From positions 1 through 43,914 of the forward strand of contig CANHCS010000011.1 of the NCBI GenBank assembly GCA_947459195.1: DNA of 43,914 nt, read 5' to 3'. The stretch's first letter is position 1. Each line of letters opens with the position of its first letter. The stretch comes from Sphingobacteriaceae bacterium. Its GTDB lineage: Bacteria > Bacteroidota > Bacteroidia > Sphingobacteriales > Sphingobacteriaceae. Below are positions 4,630 through 41,242 of the stretch, piece after piece. The notes under the pieces are model-generated. The model had not been told where the DNA came from and made no database searches. It saw only the letters and a list, made by a program, of their open reading frames with translations. A program made the translations under genes and the position numbers.

Positions 4630-6936
4630 TTAATGTGATAATAAATTGGCAGGGATTTCTGTTTTGATACCATTAGGGCCCATCATCCAGACACGAAGCT
4701 CTGAACCGCCTCCTGCTTGAAAATATTTAAGCTGAATTTTATGGAAACCTTTTTGTAAACGAATGGCCCCGGTTACACTGTTTGAAGCGTGTTTTTCATC
4801 ATTATCAACCACCAACCGGTCTCCAATCCATAAAGTGGAACCATCATCTGAAGCGCAGGTAAAACGATAGATACCATCATCCATTACTTGTAAATAACCT
4901 TCATAAATCAGTCCGAAAGTGCGTGCCTTTGTTCTGAATTTAGCCATGCTGAATGTACCAATGAACCCTTCCTCGGTTGCTTTCAGCGTATCTATTTCTT
5001 TGGTAAGGTTGAAATTACCGGGAACAAAATGGTATTTGAGACCTGGTGAACTGCTTAAAACGTTCATTGGGGCTAATGGCAAAGCATTACTTAAAATGGT
5101 GGTACTGATTGCACTTTGTTTACCAGATGGAGTGATTACCTTCGTTTTTAAGGTCCGCTGCACATCGGGCGCCATACTTACACGAATAGGCTGCTCGTAC
5201 AAACGAGTTGTTTCGTCGGGCTGATAGCCATCTAAAGTATAGTAGATCTTGGCACCTTTTACCGGGGATTTTAGCTCAATTTGAAACTGCTCTCCCAATA
5301 AGGTAGTATCCGTTACACCTATTGCAGTAGGCACCCGGTACATTGCTTGAGTTTTGTCCAGCTGGGCTAATTTTGCAGGCACGCTGATGGTAGAAAATTC
5401 AGTCCAATTTTTTCTTTCAGGCCGGGTCCAAGCAATCTCTGCCAAGGCATACAAACGGGGCAAAAGCATGTACTCCACCTTGGCCGTAGTTGGCATGTAC
5501 TCGGTCCACATATTGGCTTGCACCCCGATGATTCGGCTTTGTACCTCAGGGCTCAAATTAACCGGGGTTGGATTGTAGCTGTATACTTGTTCCAGCGGCG
5601 TATTTCCTCCAATACTCAAAGGCTCCTGATTACTTTTTCCCTGGGCATGATCGAAGTAAACAAAATCACCGGGAGTCATAATGGCATCATGGTTTTGCTT
5701 GGCTGCAGCAATTCCGCCTTCGGTTCCTCTCCAGCTCATCACCGTGGCATTGGGCGCCAAGCCACCTTCCAAAATTTCATCCCAGCCAATGATCTGGCGA
5801 CCTTTGCCATTTAAAAATTTCTCCATGCGTTGAATGAAATAACTCTGCAAGTGGTGTTCATCCTTCAGTTTCAGATCTCTGATGCGCTTTTGACAGTATT
5901 TACAAACTTTCCAGCGGGCTTTGGGAGATTCATCTCCTCCAATGTGAATGTATTTGCTGGGGAAGAGCGTCATTACTTCGGTCAGTACATCTTCTAAAAA
6001 TCCGAAGGTTTGCTCCTTACCGGCACAATAAACATCCTCAAAAACGCCCCATTTCTCAGCTACTTTAAAAGGACCGGGCTGGTCGCCACATGCCAAATCA
6101 GGATAAGCGGCAAGTGCAGCCAAAGAATGACCGGGCATCTCAATTTCAGGGATCACATTAATGTACCTTTCCTGTGCATAAGCCACCACTTCCTTAATCT
6201 CATCCTGGGTATAAAATCCGCCGTAAGGCGTTTCGTCAAACAATTGAGGGAAGCGATCGTGGTAATTACCAACCAGCGTTTGGGCTCGGTAAGCACCAAT
6301 TTCAGTCAATTTCGGATATTTTTTGATTTCAATTCTCCAACCCTGATCTTCAGTTAAGTGCCAGTGAAAATTGTTGAGTTTGTATTGAGCTAATAAATCA
6401 ATGTATTTCTTAATGAATGAAACCGGGAAGAAATGACGACCAACGTCGAGGTGCATTCCTCGATAACGGTATCGGGGCCAGTCTTGAATGCTTACTCTCT
6501 GAATTTTGACGAATGTTGAATTGCTTACGGGAAGTAACTGTATCAGCGTTTGAAAGCCATAAAATAAACCTGCTTCTTTCCCTTTGATTTCGATTACATT
6601 ACTATTAATTGTTAATTGATAAGATTCCGACTTATAGTTTTTAGCGGGATCCGTCAATAAATGAATGGCTCCGGAAGTTGCAGGGGCTAAACCTTGTTGG
6701 AGGCTGAGATTCCAGCCGTATTGCGCTGAAATAAATTGCTGAAGCAATTTGGCCAGTAAGCCGTTCTGAGCATCTTCATATTGAATAACTGTTTGGGGAC
6801 TTAATGTAAATTGATCCTGATGCAGTTGAATACTTTGAGGTGCAGGAATGATCCCAAGATTAGGACTATTCTCTTGCGCCATAATTCCAGTGCTGATAGA
6901 TAAGAAAATCAGCAGGATGCCGGTGTTTTTGGTCAT
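4630..6936 (-). CDS. Beta-N-acetylhexosaminidase (GH20) with chitobiase C-terminal-like and PA14 domains
   Basis: Signal peptide; GH20 motifs RYRGMHLDVGRHFFPVSFIKKYIDLLAQYKLNNFHWHLTEDQGWRIEIKKYP and HIGGDESPK; PA14-like C-terminus (GYLQVMDDGIYRFTCASDDGSTLWIGDRLVVDN). Confidence 0.95.
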   Translation of the reverse strand: MTKNTGILLIFLSISTGIMAQENSPNLGIIPAPQSIQLHQDQFTLSPQTVIQYEDAQNGLLAKLLQQFISAQYGWNLSLQQGLAPATSGAIHLLTDPAKNYKSESYQLTINSNVIEIKGKEAGLFYGFQTLIQLLPVSNSTFVKIQRVSIQDWPRYRYRGMHLDVGRHFFPVSFIKKYIDLLAQYKLNNFHWHLTEDQGWRIEIKKYPKLTEIGAYRAQTLVGNYHDRFPQLFDETPYGGFYTQDEIKEVVAYAQERYINVIPEIEMPGHSLAALAAYPDLACGDQPGPFKVAEKWGVFEDVYCAGKEQTFGFLEDVLTEVMTLFPSKYIHIGGDESPKARWKVCKYCQKRIRDLKLKDEHHLQSYFIQRMEKFLNGKGRQIIGWDEILEGGLAPNATVMSWRGTEGGIAAAKQNHDAIMTPGDFVYFDHAQGKSNQEPLSIGGNTPLEQVYSYNPTPVNLSPEVQSRIIGVQANMWTEYMPTTAKVEYMLLPRLYALAEIAWTRPERKNWTEFSTISVPAKLAQLDKTQAMYRVPTAIGVTDTTLLGEQFQIELKSPVKGAKIYYTLDGYQPDETTRLYEQPIRVSMAPDVQRTLKTKVITPSGKQSAISTTILSNALPLAPMNVLSSSPGLKYHFVPGNFNLTKEIDTLKATEEGFIGTFSMAKFRTKARTFGLIYEGYLQVMDDGIYRFTCASDDGSTLWIGDRLVVDNDEKHASNSVTGAIRLQKGFHKIQLKYFQAGGGSELRVWMMGPNGIKTEIPANLLSH

Positions 6937-9683: not shown

Positions 9684-9701
9684 AATTGTTTTAAAACAAT
9701 T
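9684..9701. repeat. Perfect 18-bp palindrome AATTGTTTTAAAACAATT in a divergent intergenic region
   Basis: Read directly: AATTGTTTT|AAAACAATT, each half the exact reverse complement of the other. Confidence 0.9.
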
Positions 9702-9753: not shown

Positions 9754-10548
9754 ATGAAATACAGCAAATTACTCCTCATCATTTTTTCAATCGCCAGCTT
9801 GGGTAGTTCGGCACAGACGCCCGTGGAAGAAAATCAAACAGCTCAAAAAATAGGGATACAATATTCTTTTATTCATTTTGACAAAAGGTTTAATGATCCC
9901 TGGCATTTAGCAACAGCGTCCTACAGTAGAAATTTAAAATCGGCATATCTAGGCCTAAACCTCAATTATGCCAACAGATTTCAGCAAAATGCAAGTGAAA
10001 TCGAATTAGAGACCTACCCGAAATTTAAAAAAGGGCTCTATGCCTATGTGGGTGGCGCTATGAAGTTAAACAGCAATCAATTATTTCCTGATTACCGCCT
10101 TGGAATCTCTATTTATAAATCATTACCAAATAAATTTGAGTTAGAAACAGGACTCAGACACCTGCAATTTAATGACATCACCAATGTTTGGGTATTGGGC
10201 TTCGGTAAATACGTGGGAAATTCATACCTCAATTTGAGGTCGTACTGGACCAATAATGAATCGAGGTTGAATGAGTCATTTATTTTTACAGCGAAATTTT
10301 ACCTAAGTGATGATCGCCACGACTATTGGTCGTTCAATGCCGGAACAGGTATCGCTTTCGACGACCGGACTCAAATAAACAATACTATTTATCAATTAAA
10401 TAGCTTTAGGGCTGGACTTGATTATTCGAAAAACATCAATCCAAAAACGATTGTGAAGGCCGGTTTCCAATGGATCAATGAAGAGTATCTGAATGATACT
10501 TTTGGCAATCAGTTTGGGTTTAATGCCGGTATTCAGCTCAAATTATAA
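9754..10548 (+). CDS. YaiO-like outer-membrane beta-barrel protein
   Basis: Signal peptide MKYSKLLLIIFSIASLGSSAQ followed by repeated amphipathic strands (IQYSFIHFDKRFNDPWHLATASYSRN..., AGLDYSKNINPKTIVKAGFQWINEEYLND); resembles the YaiO barrel family. ATG at 9754. Confidence 0.75.
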   Translation: MKYSKLLLIIFSIASLGSSAQTPVEENQTAQKIGIQYSFIHFDKRFNDPWHLATASYSRNLKSAYLGLNLNYANRFQQNASEIELETYPKFKKGLYAYVGGAMKLNSNQLFPDYRLGISIYKSLPNKFELETGLRHLQFNDITNVWVLGFGKYVGNSYLNLRSYWTNNESRLNESFIFTAKFYLSDDRHDYWSFNAGTGIAFDDRTQINNTIYQLNSFRAGLDYSKNINPKTIVKAGFQWINEEYLNDTFGNQFGFNAGIQLKL

Positions 10549-10555
10549 TCAAATT

Positions 10556-11968
10556 CTACCTGAAACCGTTCCTGTTCATTTTGCCCCAAGCCTTCTTCCC
10601 TATCAGGAAGTCAAAATTTCCTCTCATTTCCCAATAAAGGATTAATGGGTGATAAATAAAAGGCTCTAAGAAGGAGAGTAATGATAATTTGACCAGGTCT
10701 TTTCCGGAGGTATACTGCCTGAATGAGAGTTCCTCATAAAGAATGGTGAGGGTTGAGATGGCCAGCACAAAGCAGTAAACCATGACAAGCAGTATGATTG
10801 TGTAGGTCCAATTCACCAATCCAAAATAGATGAGTATACCTAATACAATAAGACCGATGAACTCAATTATTGGCCCCATCCATTCAACCAATAACCAATA
10901 GGGATAGCTGATTAAACCCAGTGTACCATATTTAGGATTGAAAAATAAGTCGCGGTGCATGATTAGAGATTCGAGGCAACCACGGCTCCATCTATTTCTT
11001 TGTCTACCTAAAATATTTAAATCGGATGGCGCTTCTGTCCAGCATAAAGGATCGGGCGTATAAACTACTTTGTAAGGAATTTTGTGTTTGTGCATGTATT
11101 TACGCATCCTCAACACCAATTCCATATCTTCTCCAACCGTTTTGGTGCTGTATCCACCACATTTAATCACGATATCTTTATCGAAAAGCCCCATAGCTCC
11201 CGAAACGATCAATAGACCATTAATGCGGCTCCAAGCCATACGACCCAGCAAAAAACCACGCAAATATTCCAAAACCTGAAAGCGTGATAACAAACTATTA
11301 GGCATGTGTACTTTAACCAAACGGCCGTGATTGATTTCACATGAATTGGCAATCCTGACCACCCCACCGGCGGCAATTACTTTAACTGGCTCATCCATAA
11401 ACGGTTTTACCAGTTTCAAAATAGCATCGGGATCAATGATACAGTCGGCATCAATGCAGAACAAGAGAGCGTTATGTGCAATATTTATTCCGGCATTCAA
11501 GGCATCGGCTTTCCCTCCATTTTCTTTATCTAACACAATTAAACGTTCTAATCCAGGGTTATTGGAGCGAAAAACACCTCTCACATCCTGGGTATCAATA
11601 CGTTTATTGATTGCATAGTTTTGCTTTTTAAGATCAAAAGCACGAATCAGTTCATCCAATGTACTATCAGAGCTTCCATCGTTTACCACAATCACCTCAT
11701 ATTTGTTGTAATGCAAAGAGAGTATTGAGCGTACATTGTCAACAATATTAGGGGCTTCATTATAGGCCGGTGCAATGATCGATACGCTGGGTGCAAATTC
11801 AGAAACGAGGATGCTACGGTAGTCGGTATTGCTATTTTTTCGGAGGTAAGTCCTCATCTCAAAAGCAGACAAAATAATGATCAATAAATAGGAAAGCATT
11901 ACCACCATTGCATAAACAAAGATGTAATGATTAAAAAATATCGCAATTGTATTAAGCATGGACTCCAT
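10556..11968 (-). CDS. Glycosyltransferase family 2, processive polysaccharide synthase-like membrane enzyme
   Basis: N-terminal TM, SVIAPAYNEAPNIVDNVRSIL, CIDADCIIDPDAI, KTVGEDMELVLRMR, QRNRWSRG (QxxRW), then C-terminal TM segments. Confidence 0.9.
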   Translation of the reverse strand: MESMLNTIAIFFNHYIFVYAMVVMLSYLLIIILSAFEMRTYLRKNSNTDYRSILVSEFAPSVSIIAPAYNEAPNIVDNVRSILSLHYNKYEVIVVNDGSSDSTLDELIRAFDLKKQNYAINKRIDTQDVRGVFRSNNPGLERLIVLDKENGGKADALNAGINIAHNALLFCIDADCIIDPDAILKLVKPFMDEPVKVIAAGGVVRIANSCEINHGRLVKVHMPNSLLSRFQVLEYLRGFLLGRMAWSRINGLLIVSGAMGLFDKDIVIKCGGYSTKTVGEDMELVLRMRKYMHKHKIPYKVVYTPDPLCWTEAPSDLNILGRQRNRWSRGCLESLIMHRDLFFNPKYGTLGLISYPYWLLVEWMGPIIEFIGLIVLGILIYFGLVNWTYTIILLVMVYCFVLAISTLTILYEELSFRQYTSGKDLVKLSLLSFLEPFIYHPLILYWEMRGNFDFLIGKKAWGKMNRNGFR

Positions 11969-13103
11969 GGTTCTTATTGTTTGTTTCGCCGAGTAATTGA
12001 TCTATGATTTGTAGATTCATTGGTTCGGCTTGTTGGTGATAATGTTTTAATAAATCGATGCCTTTTGCGCCATGTGCCAGCAAGGCTGCTGAGGCTTCGT
12101 AGGCGATTTCAAATTGAGGAGCGGCTGCGGCTTTCAACAAAAATTGTAATTGATTTCCAGAATTGATGCGGCCAAGGACTTTAAGAATAGGGGCCTGCAA
12201 TTCAACAGTTTGAGAATTGTAGCAATCCAGCAAAGCTGGTTCAGCACTGGATACCTCAAATTCACCTAAAATTTGGATACAATGTAATTTGATTTCGTTA
12301 TCTGGATGCTTAAGCAAATGAATGACCTTTTCTATCGCATCAAACTGTTGGAAATGGCGAATGAGTTTCAAGCACAACTCAATCACGGATTTGTTCTTAG
12401 AATTTAGCCAGGTAGAAAAATGTGGCAGCTCTTTAGGATGTATTTTACAAATAAGATCCATCAAAACCAGTTGATGCCAATCTTGTATGGGCTCCTTTAC
12501 ATCGGCTAAAAAATCGAATGAATGGGCTTTATTCAAAATAATATAGGCCGCCTGTGCCTCAATCCTAATATCAGATGAAGGGTTATTGAGGAATGTTTTA
12601 ACTAATGGCAAGAAATGTGTCAACTCCAATTGGGCAGTATCCACAATTCCTCTTATTTTGATCGGAGTTCTACTGCTCTTTAATTTATTTCGAACGATCT
12701 CATCTAAATGCAACTGCAAAAATAATTCTTTCAGTTTTTCGGATGCATGACCTGTGAAGTGATTTTGATAGTTTAAAATCTGCTGATACAGCATTCGTTT
12801 GATAAACCACCTATGAAGAGGTAATTTCCTGAAATTAGGTAGAGCTTTGCTCACAGGATCATATTCAAGATTATCATCTACTTCACTCACAAAAACATTG
12901 AGCAAGTCCATAATCTGCTCATTCCAATACCGATCTCTGGATCTAAAAAAAATAAAGACCAGACGTTTGGTGAGCAAGTAAATGTAAAAAAAGATCAATA
13001 GACCTAAACTAACCAGAGAGACTACAAGAGCAATCCGGATGTTCGTGGGCAAATCAATTATACCTAAATAGAATAAACTTGCATAATTAGAAATTATTTC
13101 CAT
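11952..13103 (-). CDS. HEAT-repeat protein with N-terminal TM helix
   Basis: TM segment (ALVVSLVSLGLLIFFYIYLL) and helical repeats (VIHLLKHPDNEIKLHCIQILGEFEVSSAEPALLDCYNSQTVELQAPILKVLGRI). Confidence 0.8.
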   Translation of the reverse strand: MEIISNYASLFYLGIIDLPTNIRIALVVSLVSLGLLIFFYIYLLTKRLVFIFFRSRDRYWNEQIMDLLNVFVSEVDDNLEYDPVSKALPNFRKLPLHRWFIKRMLYQQILNYQNHFTGHASEKLKELFLQLHLDEIVRNKLKSSRTPIKIRGIVDTAQLELTHFLPLVKTFLNNPSSDIRIEAQAAYIILNKAHSFDFLADVKEPIQDWHQLVLMDLICKIHPKELPHFSTWLNSKNKSVIELCLKLIRHFQQFDAIEKVIHLLKHPDNEIKLHCIQILGEFEVSSAEPALLDCYNSQTVELQAPILKVLGRINSGNQLQFLLKAAAAPQFEIAYEASAALLAHGAKGIDLLKHYHQQAEPMNLQIIDQLLGETNNKNHGVHA

Positions 13104-13486
13104 CAGACAGTTTTTTGTTTAATGTGTTTTTTAATTCTAACGATCAATTCAGGCAAATTGAAAGGTTTTGCGATGAAATCATCGGCTCCAAGGGCAAAGG
13201 CCTCCAATATCACGTTTTCCAGACCATTGGCCGACAAAACAATCACCGAAGTATCTTTGGTGAGCGGATCTGATTTAATTTTGTGCGTAATCTCAAGGCC
13301 ACCTACATAGGGCAGCATTACATCGACCAAGATAAGTTCAAAACGATGTTGGGGAATTAATTCCAAGGCTTCGCCACCATCTTTGGCTAAGTATACTTCG
13401 TAGCCTTCTTTCTTTAACCTAAATTCAAGTACTTTTCTAATTAGTTCTTCATCTTCGATTACTAAGATTTTGCAGGGTGATTCCAT
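13103..13486 (-). CDS. Response regulator, receiver domain only
   Basis: VIEDEE acidic pocket, ILVDVMLP phosphoacceptor, VIVLSAN, AKPFNLPEL; 127 aa with no output domain. Confidence 0.93.
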   Translation of the reverse strand: MESPCKILVIEDEELIRKVLEFRLKKEGYEVYLAKDGGEALELIPQHRFELILVDVMLPYVGGLEITHKIKSDPLTKDTSVIVLSANGLENVILEAFALGADDFIAKPFNLPELIVRIKKHIKQKTV

Positions 13487-13744: not shown

Positions 13745-13828
13745 GCCCAGGTGGCGAAATTGGTAAACGTTGCGGTCTCAGAAGCCGTTGCCGTAATAGG
13801 CTTGAGAGTTCGAGTCTCTCCCTGGGCA
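13745..13828 (+). tRNA. tRNA-Leu, anticodon CAG
   Basis: GCCCAGG/CCTGGGC acceptor pairing, D-loop AAATTGGTAAAC, anticodon stem-loop GCGGT-CTCAGAA-GCCGT, long variable arm, AGAG-TTCGAGT-CTCT T-arm. CCA not encoded. Confidence 0.95.
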
Positions 13829-13850
13829 CAAGTTCTTTATAAATTAGATT

Positions 13851-13934
13851 GCCCGGGTGGCGAAATTGGTAGACGCACCATCTTGAGGGGGTGGCGTTCG
13901 TAAGGACGTACGAGTTCGAATCTCGTTCCGGGCA
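13851..13934 (+). tRNA. tRNA-Leu, anticodon GAG
   Basis: GCCCGGG/TCCGGGC acceptor pairing, AAATTGGTAGACGC D-arm, anticodon stem-loop CCATC-TTGAGGG-GGTGG, long variable arm, GTTCGAATC T-loop. CCA not encoded. Confidence 0.95.
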
Positions 13935-13938
13935 CTTT

Positions 13939-38380: not shown

Positions 38381-41242
38381 ATGTTAAAAATGGTCAAAAA
38401 TATTAAACTTAAGTATCTGTTAATCAGTTGTTTATGTATTAATATTTTTAGTATCAATTTACATTATACTCAAGCACAAATTTTAGAGGGTGGACAGAAC
38501 CCGCCAGGTATCAAATGGCGGCAAATCAATACTGAAAATTTTCAGATCCTCTACCCCGACTCGATCGAAACCGAAGCACAAAGAATGGCAAACAGCTTAG
38601 ACTTCATGATCCAAAAGATCAGTCACAGTCTGAACAAGAAACCCAGAAGGATCAGTATCATTTTACAGAACCAAACTGTGGAGTCGAACGGCTTTGTTCA
38701 GCTGGCTCCCCGACGCTCCGAATTCTATGCCATCCCTGGCCAGGAGTTCGACTACCAGGACTGGTTGAACAGCTTAGCTGTTCACGAATTGCGACATGTT
38801 GTACAAGTTGATAAGATCTCGGGTAATTTGCGGGCTCCCCTTTTTGAAACACTTGCCTTCACCATATTTGGAGTTACGCTACCAGCTTGGTTCTTTGAAG
38901 GCGATGCTGTGGTCATAGAAACTACCCTAACCGCCGCCGGTCGGGGTCGTCAGCCAAGCTGGGAAATGCCTTTCAGGGCGAATTTGCTATCCGGCCGTGA
39001 GTTTAATTACTCTAAAAACTTTATGGGTTCATTCAAAGACCGCACACCGGGCTATTACCAATTGGGCTACACGATGATGACCAAACTGAGAAGAGATCAT
39101 GGACCAATGATTTTAGACACTTTACTGCGTGATATGAGCAAAAACCTGATCAGGCCCATGAATTTAAGCAGATCGAGCAAGAAATTTACAGGCTTGAGCA
39201 CTTTAGAGTGGCACAATGCCACCATCAATGAACTCCAAAAACTATGGCAGGAGCAGCTTAACAAAACAACTACACAGCTCTATCCGGGGATTAATTTCAG
39301 AAAAAATACCATCCCCGAAGATTATCTACTGCCGCATCGAATCAATGAAAAGGAAATTCTTGCCCTGAAAAGAAGTAAAATCCACACACCAGAAATTGTT
39401 TTGGTAGATATGGATGGGAATGAAAAGAAAATCATCCGTATCGGAATTCAGCAGGAAGCGCATTTGAGCTATGCCGCAGGAAAAATAGTTTGGGATGAGC
39501 TCAGGGTAGACCTACGCTATTCCAAACGCACATTCAACGTAATATGTACTTATGATTTGAACTCGAACTCCTATCGGCAAATCACACATCATTCCCGGCT
39601 GTTTTCGCCTGCCCTATCGCCCGATGGCAAAAAAATAGCTGCCATACAGGTTGATTACAGCAATCGGATGATGCTCGTTGAATTAGACGCCTCCAGTGGC
39701 AAAATCATTGCTAAATATCCGAACGCTGACCTGAGCATCCTTCAAACGCCCAAATACAACTCAACTGGTGATAAGGTTGTTTATCTGAGGGTAAATCAAC
39801 AAGGTAAAGCGATCGAAGAAATAGACCTGATTAGCCAAAAAATCTCCATCCGTCTTCCCTATCAGGCTCAATTATTGGCCCGACCTGGCTATGTCGGTGA
39901 AAACATCATTTTTAAAGCACATTATAATGGCATTGATAATATTTACCAAATCAATCAATTTGGACAGATCAGCCAGATTACAGCTGCTAATTTCGGTGCA
40001 TTCTATCCTCAGTTCGACCCGGAGCGCAAGGAGCTTTTGTTCAGTAATTATCAAGTAAATGGCTATGATTTGTCCATTCTCAAGGAAAGCGATCTAAATA
40101 ACATTCCATTCTCCGAGATCAAAAATCATTTTATCGATTATTCTAAGCCGCTTATCGAAAAAGAAGAGTCGCCGATCGATTTCTCTAAGGTGCCCCAAAA
40201 ACAATTGCCCTACAAGCCTTATAATGCTTTCAAAAGCCTTTTAAATTTTCACAGTCTGGTACCCACATTAGAAACTAATAATTTCTCCGACGACTGGAAT
40301 GTAGGCCTTCAAGCCGTTTCGAGCAATTTATTGAATACAATGAGCTTCAATTCTGGCTACATTTATTACTCCGGATTGGGTCGATCTGGTTACAAGGCAG
40401 GTTTGGCCTACCGTGCTCTCTACCCCATTATCAGCCTGCGATATTCGAATATTCCGAGGAGGCTGAGTGTAGAAGACAATGGCGTTCCGGTTTTATTTAA
40501 CTGGCGAGAGCAGGAAACAGAAGTTAATATAGACGTACCCTTCAGGTTCAATTACCGAAATCAGTTTGGCCGTATGGGGATGGAATTCTCCACCAGCTAT
40601 ACTTCTAGATATGATATCGTTGCCCAGCCTAGCAATTACAACATCAATCAAAATATTGCATTTCCAATGCATTATGGATTTTACTATGCACAAAATAACT
40701 TGATCAGTGCAAGAGATTTAGCACCAAGATGGGGGCATAATTACCGAATTGACTACCGTCATTTCCCATTTGAAAATCAGATTTCTGGTCAGCTTCTCAG
40801 CATCAAAACTCTGTTTTTTGCTCCCGGATTATTCCGAAATCACAGCCTGTCGGCCAGTGTCAATTATCAGCTTGCCAACGGTAATTATCAATACACCAAT
40901 GATATCCCCACCATTAGTGGTTACAATCAATTGAACAGCAATCCTGAAATCCTGAAAAACACAATTTTGCTCGATTATAAATTTCCATTTGCTTACCCGG
41001 ACTGGGAACTGGGCGCCTTGGCTTATGTAAAACGCTTGAAGGCTGGCTTTTTTGCAGATTACGAGAATATTACCGATCTAAAAACTGCCATGCCCCGAAC
41101 TTATGGCTTTGAGCTGAGTGCAGACCTGAACTTGCTGAGGTTCTACCTCCCCAGCTTCCAGGCAGGTGGAAAAATCATTTTTACGAATGATAATTTAAAT
41201 CGAAAGCCGATATTCGAATTCGGATTAACCTATTCCTATTAA
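38381..41242 (+). CDS. Large exported protein: gluzincin-like metallopeptidase region, TolB-like beta-propeller, C-terminal barrel-like region
   Basis: Signal-like N-terminus; LAVHELRHVVQVD (HExxH) and WFFEGDAVVIET; propeller-like LFSPALSPDGKKIAAIQVDYSNRMMLVELD; C-terminal alternating strands ending FEFGLTYSY. Confidence 0.82.
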   Translation: MLKMVKNIKLKYLLISCLCINIFSINLHYTQAQILEGGQNPPGIKWRQINTENFQILYPDSIETEAQRMANSLDFMIQKISHSLNKKPRRISIILQNQTVESNGFVQLAPRRSEFYAIPGQEFDYQDWLNSLAVHELRHVVQVDKISGNLRAPLFETLAFTIFGVTLPAWFFEGDAVVIETTLTAAGRGRQPSWEMPFRANLLSGREFNYSKNFMGSFKDRTPGYYQLGYTMMTKLRRDHGPMILDTLLRDMSKNLIRPMNLSRSSKKFTGLSTLEWHNATINELQKLWQEQLNKTTTQLYPGINFRKNTIPEDYLLPHRINEKEILALKRSKIHTPEIVLVDMDGNEKKIIRIGIQQEAHLSYAAGKIVWDELRVDLRYSKRTFNVICTYDLNSNSYRQITHHSRLFSPALSPDGKKIAAIQVDYSNRMMLVELDASSGKIIAKYPNADLSILQTPKYNSTGDKVVYLRVNQQGKAIEEIDLISQKISIRLPYQAQLLARPGYVGENIIFKAHYNGIDNIYQINQFGQISQITAANFGAFYPQFDPERKELLFSNYQVNGYDLSILKESDLNNIPFSEIKNHFIDYSKPLIEKEESPIDFSKVPQKQLPYKPYNAFKSLLNFHSLVPTLETNNFSDDWNVGLQAVSSNLLNTMSFNSGYIYYSGLGRSGYKAGLAYRALYPIISLRYSNIPRRLSVEDNGVPVLFNWREQETEVNIDVPFRFNYRNQFGRMGMEFSTSYTSRYDIVAQPSNYNINQNIAFPMHYGFYYAQNNLISARDLAPRWGHNYRIDYRHFPFENQISGQLLSIKTLFFAPGLFRNHSLSASVNYQLANGNYQYTNDIPTISGYNQLNSNPEILKNTILLDYKFPFAYPDWELGALAYVKRLKAGFFADYENITDLKTAMPRTYGFELSADLNLLRFYLPSFQAGGKIIFTNDNLNRKPIFEFGLTYSY

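Follow-up and report, generated by a model that had tools for sequence, protein, structure and literature searches.

The known synthase-dependent exopolysaccharide (EPS) secretion systems of Gram-negative bacteria are mostly gated by c-di-GMP. Their outer-membrane exporters are 16-18-stranded β-barrels, and the QxxRW motif is a hallmark of processive enzymes. The combination of TPR repeats with a β-barrel represents the architecture of synthase-dependent exporters (PMC9601211). Furthermore, control of an EPS enzyme by a phosphorylated single-domain receiver has been described, as phospho-EpsW activates EpsZ, apparently by direct contact (PMC12802240).

Here we describe a four-gene cassette from a Sphingobacteriaceae bacterium, found on a stretch of 43,914 nucleotides (contig 11; hereafter the window) of a 1.80 Mb genome with a completeness of 93.5%. 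The cassette shares an inner-membrane processive family 2 glycosyltransferase (GT2) with the Bcs, Pga, Alg and Pel systems and, in its relatives, a TPR-plus-β-barrel exporter. In contrast to these systems, it is devoid of c-di-GMP/PilZ control and of a deacetylase and contains a receiver and a HEAT-repeat protein instead; its YaiO barrel belongs to another family, is smaller and in the window is not accompanied by TPR repeats. We consider it fairly probable that the locus is a reduced synthase-type EPS secretion cassette, in which the HEAT protein acts as scaffold or regulator and the receiver as a switch operating through HEAT, with no involvement of c-di-GMP. Synthesis of a sugar polymer and its passage through the barrel are very probable. 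The gene set, its conservation, the predicted folds, co-occurrence and the absence of GGDEF proteins are computational results, to which polymer export and identity, topology, contact between receiver, HEAT and GT2 and the sign of regulation are added by inference.

Organisation of the locus

The features of the locus are listed in Table 1. The first-pass annotation of this DNA had described three tightly coupled minus-strand genes and a YaiO gene converging on the GT2 gene, and the coordinates agree with this description. The TGA of the receiver gene and the ATG of the HEAT gene have one base in common (...CTGATGG...), the HEAT and GT2 genes overlap by 17 nt (11952-11968) and the convergent GT2 and YaiO genes are separated by a gap of 7 nt (10549-10555). 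The start of YaiO was assigned to the ATG at 9754, which opens a signal peptide, while the TTG at 9700 merely yields the longest open reading frame. Likewise in agreement with that annotation, no PilZ, GGDEF or deacetylase gene, and no kinase gene, was detected by a Pfam scan of 34 window proteins; recognition by eye only applies to a few short open reading frames and to the genes resembling lolA and ftsK. Scanning the locus for promoters and terminators revealed no signal above shuffled sequences. Tandem tRNA-Leu genes (CAG, GAG; 13745-13935, plus strand) are located just upstream of the receiver gene, and a 953-aa open reading frame at 38381-41242 showed no Pfam match at E ≤ 1e-5.

Table 1. 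Genes of the cassette and a candidate motif, with positions in the window
Feature	Positions	Strand	Basis
Single-domain response regulator, 127 aa, D55, without output domain	13103-13486	-	PF00072, E = 2.8e-28
HEAT-repeat membrane protein, 383 aa	11952-13103	-	PF13646 (HEAT_2), E = 2.2e-12; AF2 model all-helical
Membrane GT2, processive-synthase type, 470 aa	10556-11968	-	PF13641 (Glyco_tranf_2_3), E = 5.2e-24
YaiO-family outer-membrane β-barrel, signal peptide, 264 aa, without TPR domain	9754-10548	+	PF19413, E = 1.4e-48
Codons of candidate receiver-docking motif W209-x-Q211 in HEAT (hypothesis)	12471-12479	-	Residue association with receiver

Distribution of the cassette

Conservation was assessed by profile searches in a family sample of 201 Sphingobacteriaceae genomes and a phylum sample of 346 Bacteroidota genomes; a locus search with one protein gave just 2 loci. 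The HEAT protein is encoded in 65 genomes of the family sample, YaiO in 64 and both in 63 (Fisher p = 1.1e-48), and YaiO lies within 15 kb of 73 of the 85 HEAT genes. The GT2 subfamily (E ≤ 1e-90) occurs in 65 genomes as well, namely the HEAT set minus a degraded copy (G162) plus G002. Among the Bacteroidia of the phylum sample, the genomes with HEAT are identical to those with YaiO (40/40), while outside this class the correspondence is looser. GT2 adjoins HEAT in 30 of 30 family loci, with the receiver adjacent in the order receiver-HEAT-GT2 in 29 of them; the phylum search gave 27 loci, 19 of which have a receiver upstream. The grouping of the four genes is far beyond chance, and the cassette is widespread in Bacteroidota; the conserved neighbourhood that the first-pass annotation had made a test of its interpretation was thus borne out. 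Open-access PMC articles included none on HEAT repeats together with YaiO, on YaiO-linked exopolysaccharide in Bacteroidota or on this cassette, which is apparently new to the literature.

Proposed control by receiver and HEAT protein

No GGDEF protein is encoded in the window genome, and just 3 of the 201 family genomes, none of them a cassette carrier, encode one; control searches of E. coli and others gave matches. The activation by c-di-GMP which is usual, not universal, in synthase-dependent EPS systems finds neither a GGDEF counterpart in the genome nor a PilZ counterpart on GT2 or among the window proteins scanned, and control of the cassette by c-di-GMP is very unlikely, as had been proposed at first. 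Most Sphingobacteriaceae have no GGDEF proteins.

The receiver carries E11/D12, D55, S85 and K107. It thus possesses the Asp, Ser/Thr and Lys residues of a single-domain response regulator and no output domain, as initially described. Receivers adjoining HEAT retained D55 in 48/48, S/T85 in 48/48 and K107 in 47/48 cases. Myxococcus EpsW-EpsZ offers a parallel, as a single-domain receiver controls an EPS enzyme post-translationally, but the enzyme targeted there is a phosphoglycosyl transferase that initiates a Wzx/Wzy pathway, and neither a HEAT adaptor nor a synthase is involved (PMC12802240). HATPase_c domains were located at 14 places in the window genome, none of them inside the window. 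In relatives (L020, L123, L125, L127-L129, L132, L134), a receiver-bearing open reading frame of the hybrid-kinase type directly precedes the receiver gene, with kinase domains verified for L020, and hybrid kinases with Hpt domains are found near the cassette. Two lineages carry HEAT-GT2-YaiO without a receiver. The receiver is hence not essential to the machine; HEAT belongs to its core and the receiver is a dispensable input.

The AF2 model of the HEAT protein (pLDDT 94.8) revealed an all-helical α-solenoid behind one N-terminal membrane helix, and its fold matches in the PDB are generic α-solenoids. Positively charged residues following the membrane helix suggest that the solenoid is cytoplasmic. 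In L079 and L087, an apparently periplasmic N-terminal extension precedes this helix. Trp or Phe at the WxQ motif of HEAT was found in 65 of 69 receiver-bearing versus 4 of 19 receiver-less cassettes (raw p = 4e-10). When the loci of the discovery alignment were set aside, W209 was present in 21/22 with versus 4/17 without a receiver (p = 4e-6). On the GT2 tree, the receiver was lost only 2 times, and an independent-pairs test of the association gave p = 1, the corrected test having no power because of the small number of losses. As the association is not significant after tree correction, WxQ is treated here as a hypothetical dock only.

The same export machine could also work with a receiver that serves as phosphorelay intermediate or phosphate sink (Spo0F/CheY-like) and a HEAT protein that is a structural or assembly factor, with no contact between the two. 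The retention of HEAT and GT2 in receiver-less cassettes, the Hpt-containing hybrid kinases near the cassettes of relatives and the failure of the WxQ link on the tree would be compatible with such a relay. We nevertheless regard it as unlikely, because the receiver gene overlaps HEAT or sits within tens of bases of it in nearly all receiver-bearing loci, and the gene-order comparison of 51 loci revealed neither a further relay gene nor an output regulator conserved beside the receiver.

The GT2 synthase and the YaiO barrel

The first-pass annotation had assigned the GT2, with its terminal transmembrane segments and its DADC, GED and QRNRW motifs, to the processive synthases. All these elements were present: D97, D173-A-D175-C, G279-E-D and Q323-R-N-R-W, a single membrane helix at the N-terminus and membrane helices at the C-terminus. 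An alignment of 32 members showed the motif residues to be invariant, except for the nearly invariant glycine of GED and the middle asparagine of QRNRW. The best fold match of the AF2 model (pLDDT 88.6) is hyaluronan synthase (E 1.8e-17, TM 0.66, 468 columns, that is full length), followed by chitin synthases and cellulose synthases, and a check for grouping with non-processive enzymes did not refute the assignment. Fold and QxxRW, DxD and GED motifs together provide the inner-membrane synthase of a synthase-dependent EPS system, as a predicted activity.

Chlorella virus hyaluronan synthase (PDB codes 8sne and 7sp8) resembles the GT2 over its full-length fold and in its catalytic motifs, but the two share 19% identity and the viral enzyme works alone, without HEAT, receiver or outer-membrane barrel. 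PgaC/IcaA (TIGR03937) has a similar layout and is the best NCBIfam match, although the score lies below the equivalog cut-off (146 vs 422 bits) and no PgaA, PgaB or PgaD was found at the window locus. The score for BcsA (TIGR03030) is likewise below the cut-off (42 vs 699 bits), and the GT2 has no PilZ domain.

YaiO exceeded the curated cut-offs of PF19413 (165.6 vs 23.9 bits) and TIGR04390 (132.3 vs 32 bits), while a PDB sequence search gave no match for it. Its barrel comprises about 230 aa with about 14 strands as counted by eye, and its alignment with the TPR-YaiO protein of L109 is confined to residues 170-419 of the latter. The periplasmic TPR domain of synthase-dependent EPS systems is thus missing at the window locus; the window copy can therefore only be said to work like such a system. 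In E. coli, a YaiO barrel is also clustered with a GT2 (yaiO-yaiX-yaiP-yaiS), but YaiP shares 28% identity with our GT2 over 239 aa, and an acyltransferase and a deacetylase take the place of receiver and HEAT.

Catalytic motifs of GT2 were read in 103 loci and appeared wrecked in G015:C3, G053:C4 and G016, all without a YaiO gene nearby; G016 is the sole family genome with an intact HEAT gene and no YaiO anywhere. This association, which comprises three loci of related lineages, ties the exporter to an active synthase. In L017:8122-9483, L018:7517-9031 and L041:131-1492, a GT2 within the receiver-HEAT operon has lost DxD, GED and/or QxxRW residues and YaiO is not nearby; judged by these losses, the proteins are likely pseudo-glycosyltransferases. 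Two consecutive GT2 genes per cassette occur in L118 and L119 (G089, G094), and one GT2 aligns in two pieces, as if by an insertion between the DxD and ED motifs.

The full-size cassette and its reduction

The gene order over 51 loci is (hybrid kinase)-receiver-HEAT-GT2-(sulfatase/LtaS-fold membrane transferase)-(~390-aa protein)-TPR-YaiO; in some relatives the order is reshuffled with the same gene set. A second subtype encodes a YaiO protein of ~950 or ~520 aa followed by a DUF4838 protein. TPR repeats precede YaiO in nearly all relatives, including G002 of the same genus. In many genomes, the transferase is fused to the C-terminus of GT2, typically in proteins of ~1150 aa; the fusions of L019, L020, L021, L121, L127, L129, L130, L139 and L140 measure ~1130-1270 aa. 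Its best models are LtaS and OpgB, both far below cut-off, and its LtaS/alkaline-phosphatase fold weakly recalls BcsG of the cellulose system (PF11658, E = 0.0086); BcsG offers an analogy by which the transferase may attach a phospho-substituent to the polymer. The membrane-anchored ~390-aa protein (L109:11255-12433; also L016, L107, L111, L113-L115, L117, L121, L130, L131, L141, L142) is highly conserved and present in 17 of the 51 cassettes, with the motifs DKTVL, DTYGIY and GDFxDNP; it has no match in Pfam, NCBIfam or PDB sequences.

L109 (G093) occupies the same chromosomal site as the window locus, with FtsK, LolA and a metallo-hydrolase upstream and a carboxylase and thioredoxin reductase downstream, and holds the full set of receiver, HEAT, GT2, transferase, 390-aa protein and a 420-aa TPR-YaiO. 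Compared to it, the window has lost the genes for the transferase and for the 390-aa protein, and of YaiO the half with the TPR repeats; two sulfatase-fold genes scoring over the family cut-off are encoded elsewhere in the window genome. Within the genus, thioredoxin reductase and GT2 of G002 still flank genes for the transferase (701 aa) and for a TPR-YaiO of 434 aa, and G004 (99% complete) has no HEAT, YaiO or GT2. Thus, within these small genomes, the machine is an accessory that has undergone erosion. The site in G004 gave no demonstration of a clean loss, the carboxylase match being a non-syntenic paralogue (70% identity). The minimal machine of the first-pass annotation represents a secondary reduction rather than a primordial state, as relatives carry the transferase, the ~390-aa protein, TPR repeats and the hybrid kinase.

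The partner transferase bears on a further explanation, by which GT2 is non-processive and modifies a glycan that is lipid-linked or part of the envelope (DPM- or teichoic-acid-like), with YaiO as an envelope partner and not an exporter. A product resembling teichoic acid or osmoregulated glucan would agree with the LtaS-fold partner of relatives, which scores on the models of LtaS and OpgB, and E. coli yaiO stands beside a deacetylase and a GT2 without an assigned product. The archaeal mannosyltransferase PcManGT also matches the GT2 model, but it superposes poorly (rmsd ~10), while hyaluronan synthase matches over the full length. The invariant QxxRW and the exporter architecture of TPR repeats plus barrel, shared by nearly all relatives, also speak against this explanation, which we consider improbable. 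A merely inherited neighbourhood of the four genes, without any common function, could be read from the opposite strand of YaiO but is effectively refuted by their co-occurrence across genomes (p = 1e-48) and by the reshuffled order of the same gene set in relatives.

Proposed mechanism

In the favoured reading as a secretion cassette, GT2 would build the chain from a nucleotide sugar at the cytoplasmic face of the inner membrane and thread it through this membrane, and YaiO would release the polymer across the outer membrane. HEAT, anchored beside GT2 by its N-terminal membrane helix, would be indispensable to the synthase as its scaffold or regulator. A kinase encoded elsewhere in the genome would phosphorylate the stand-alone receiver, a task which in relatives would fall to the hybrid kinase encoded next door, and the phospho-receiver would bind the HEAT solenoid and switch synthesis on or off after translation. 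The short YaiO barrel, the missing TPR repeats and linked kinase in the window and the receiver-less lineages are points against this reading. Whether there is a phylum-wide class of such EPS machines in bacteria without c-di-GMP, in which a phospho-receiver docked on HEAT gates a hyaluronan synthase-like polymerase post-translationally in place of c-di-GMP/PilZ, with decoration by the LtaS-fold transferase and export by YaiO, appears evenly balanced.

The cassette supplies synthase, exporter and a likely switch for secretion without c-di-GMP, and YaiO, which has no assigned function in E. coli, gains a testable role. With just four genes, the window copy offers experiments a version of the machine that is minimal by nature. 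The polymer may perhaps be a HexNAc-containing β-glycan, a tentative suggestion. Two genes from the cassette, the window encodes a GH20 β-hexosaminidase with a PA14 domain (4630-6936), which could act on a HexNAc polymer; its gene is retained in the syntenic loci L014, L015 and L149 of the same genus.
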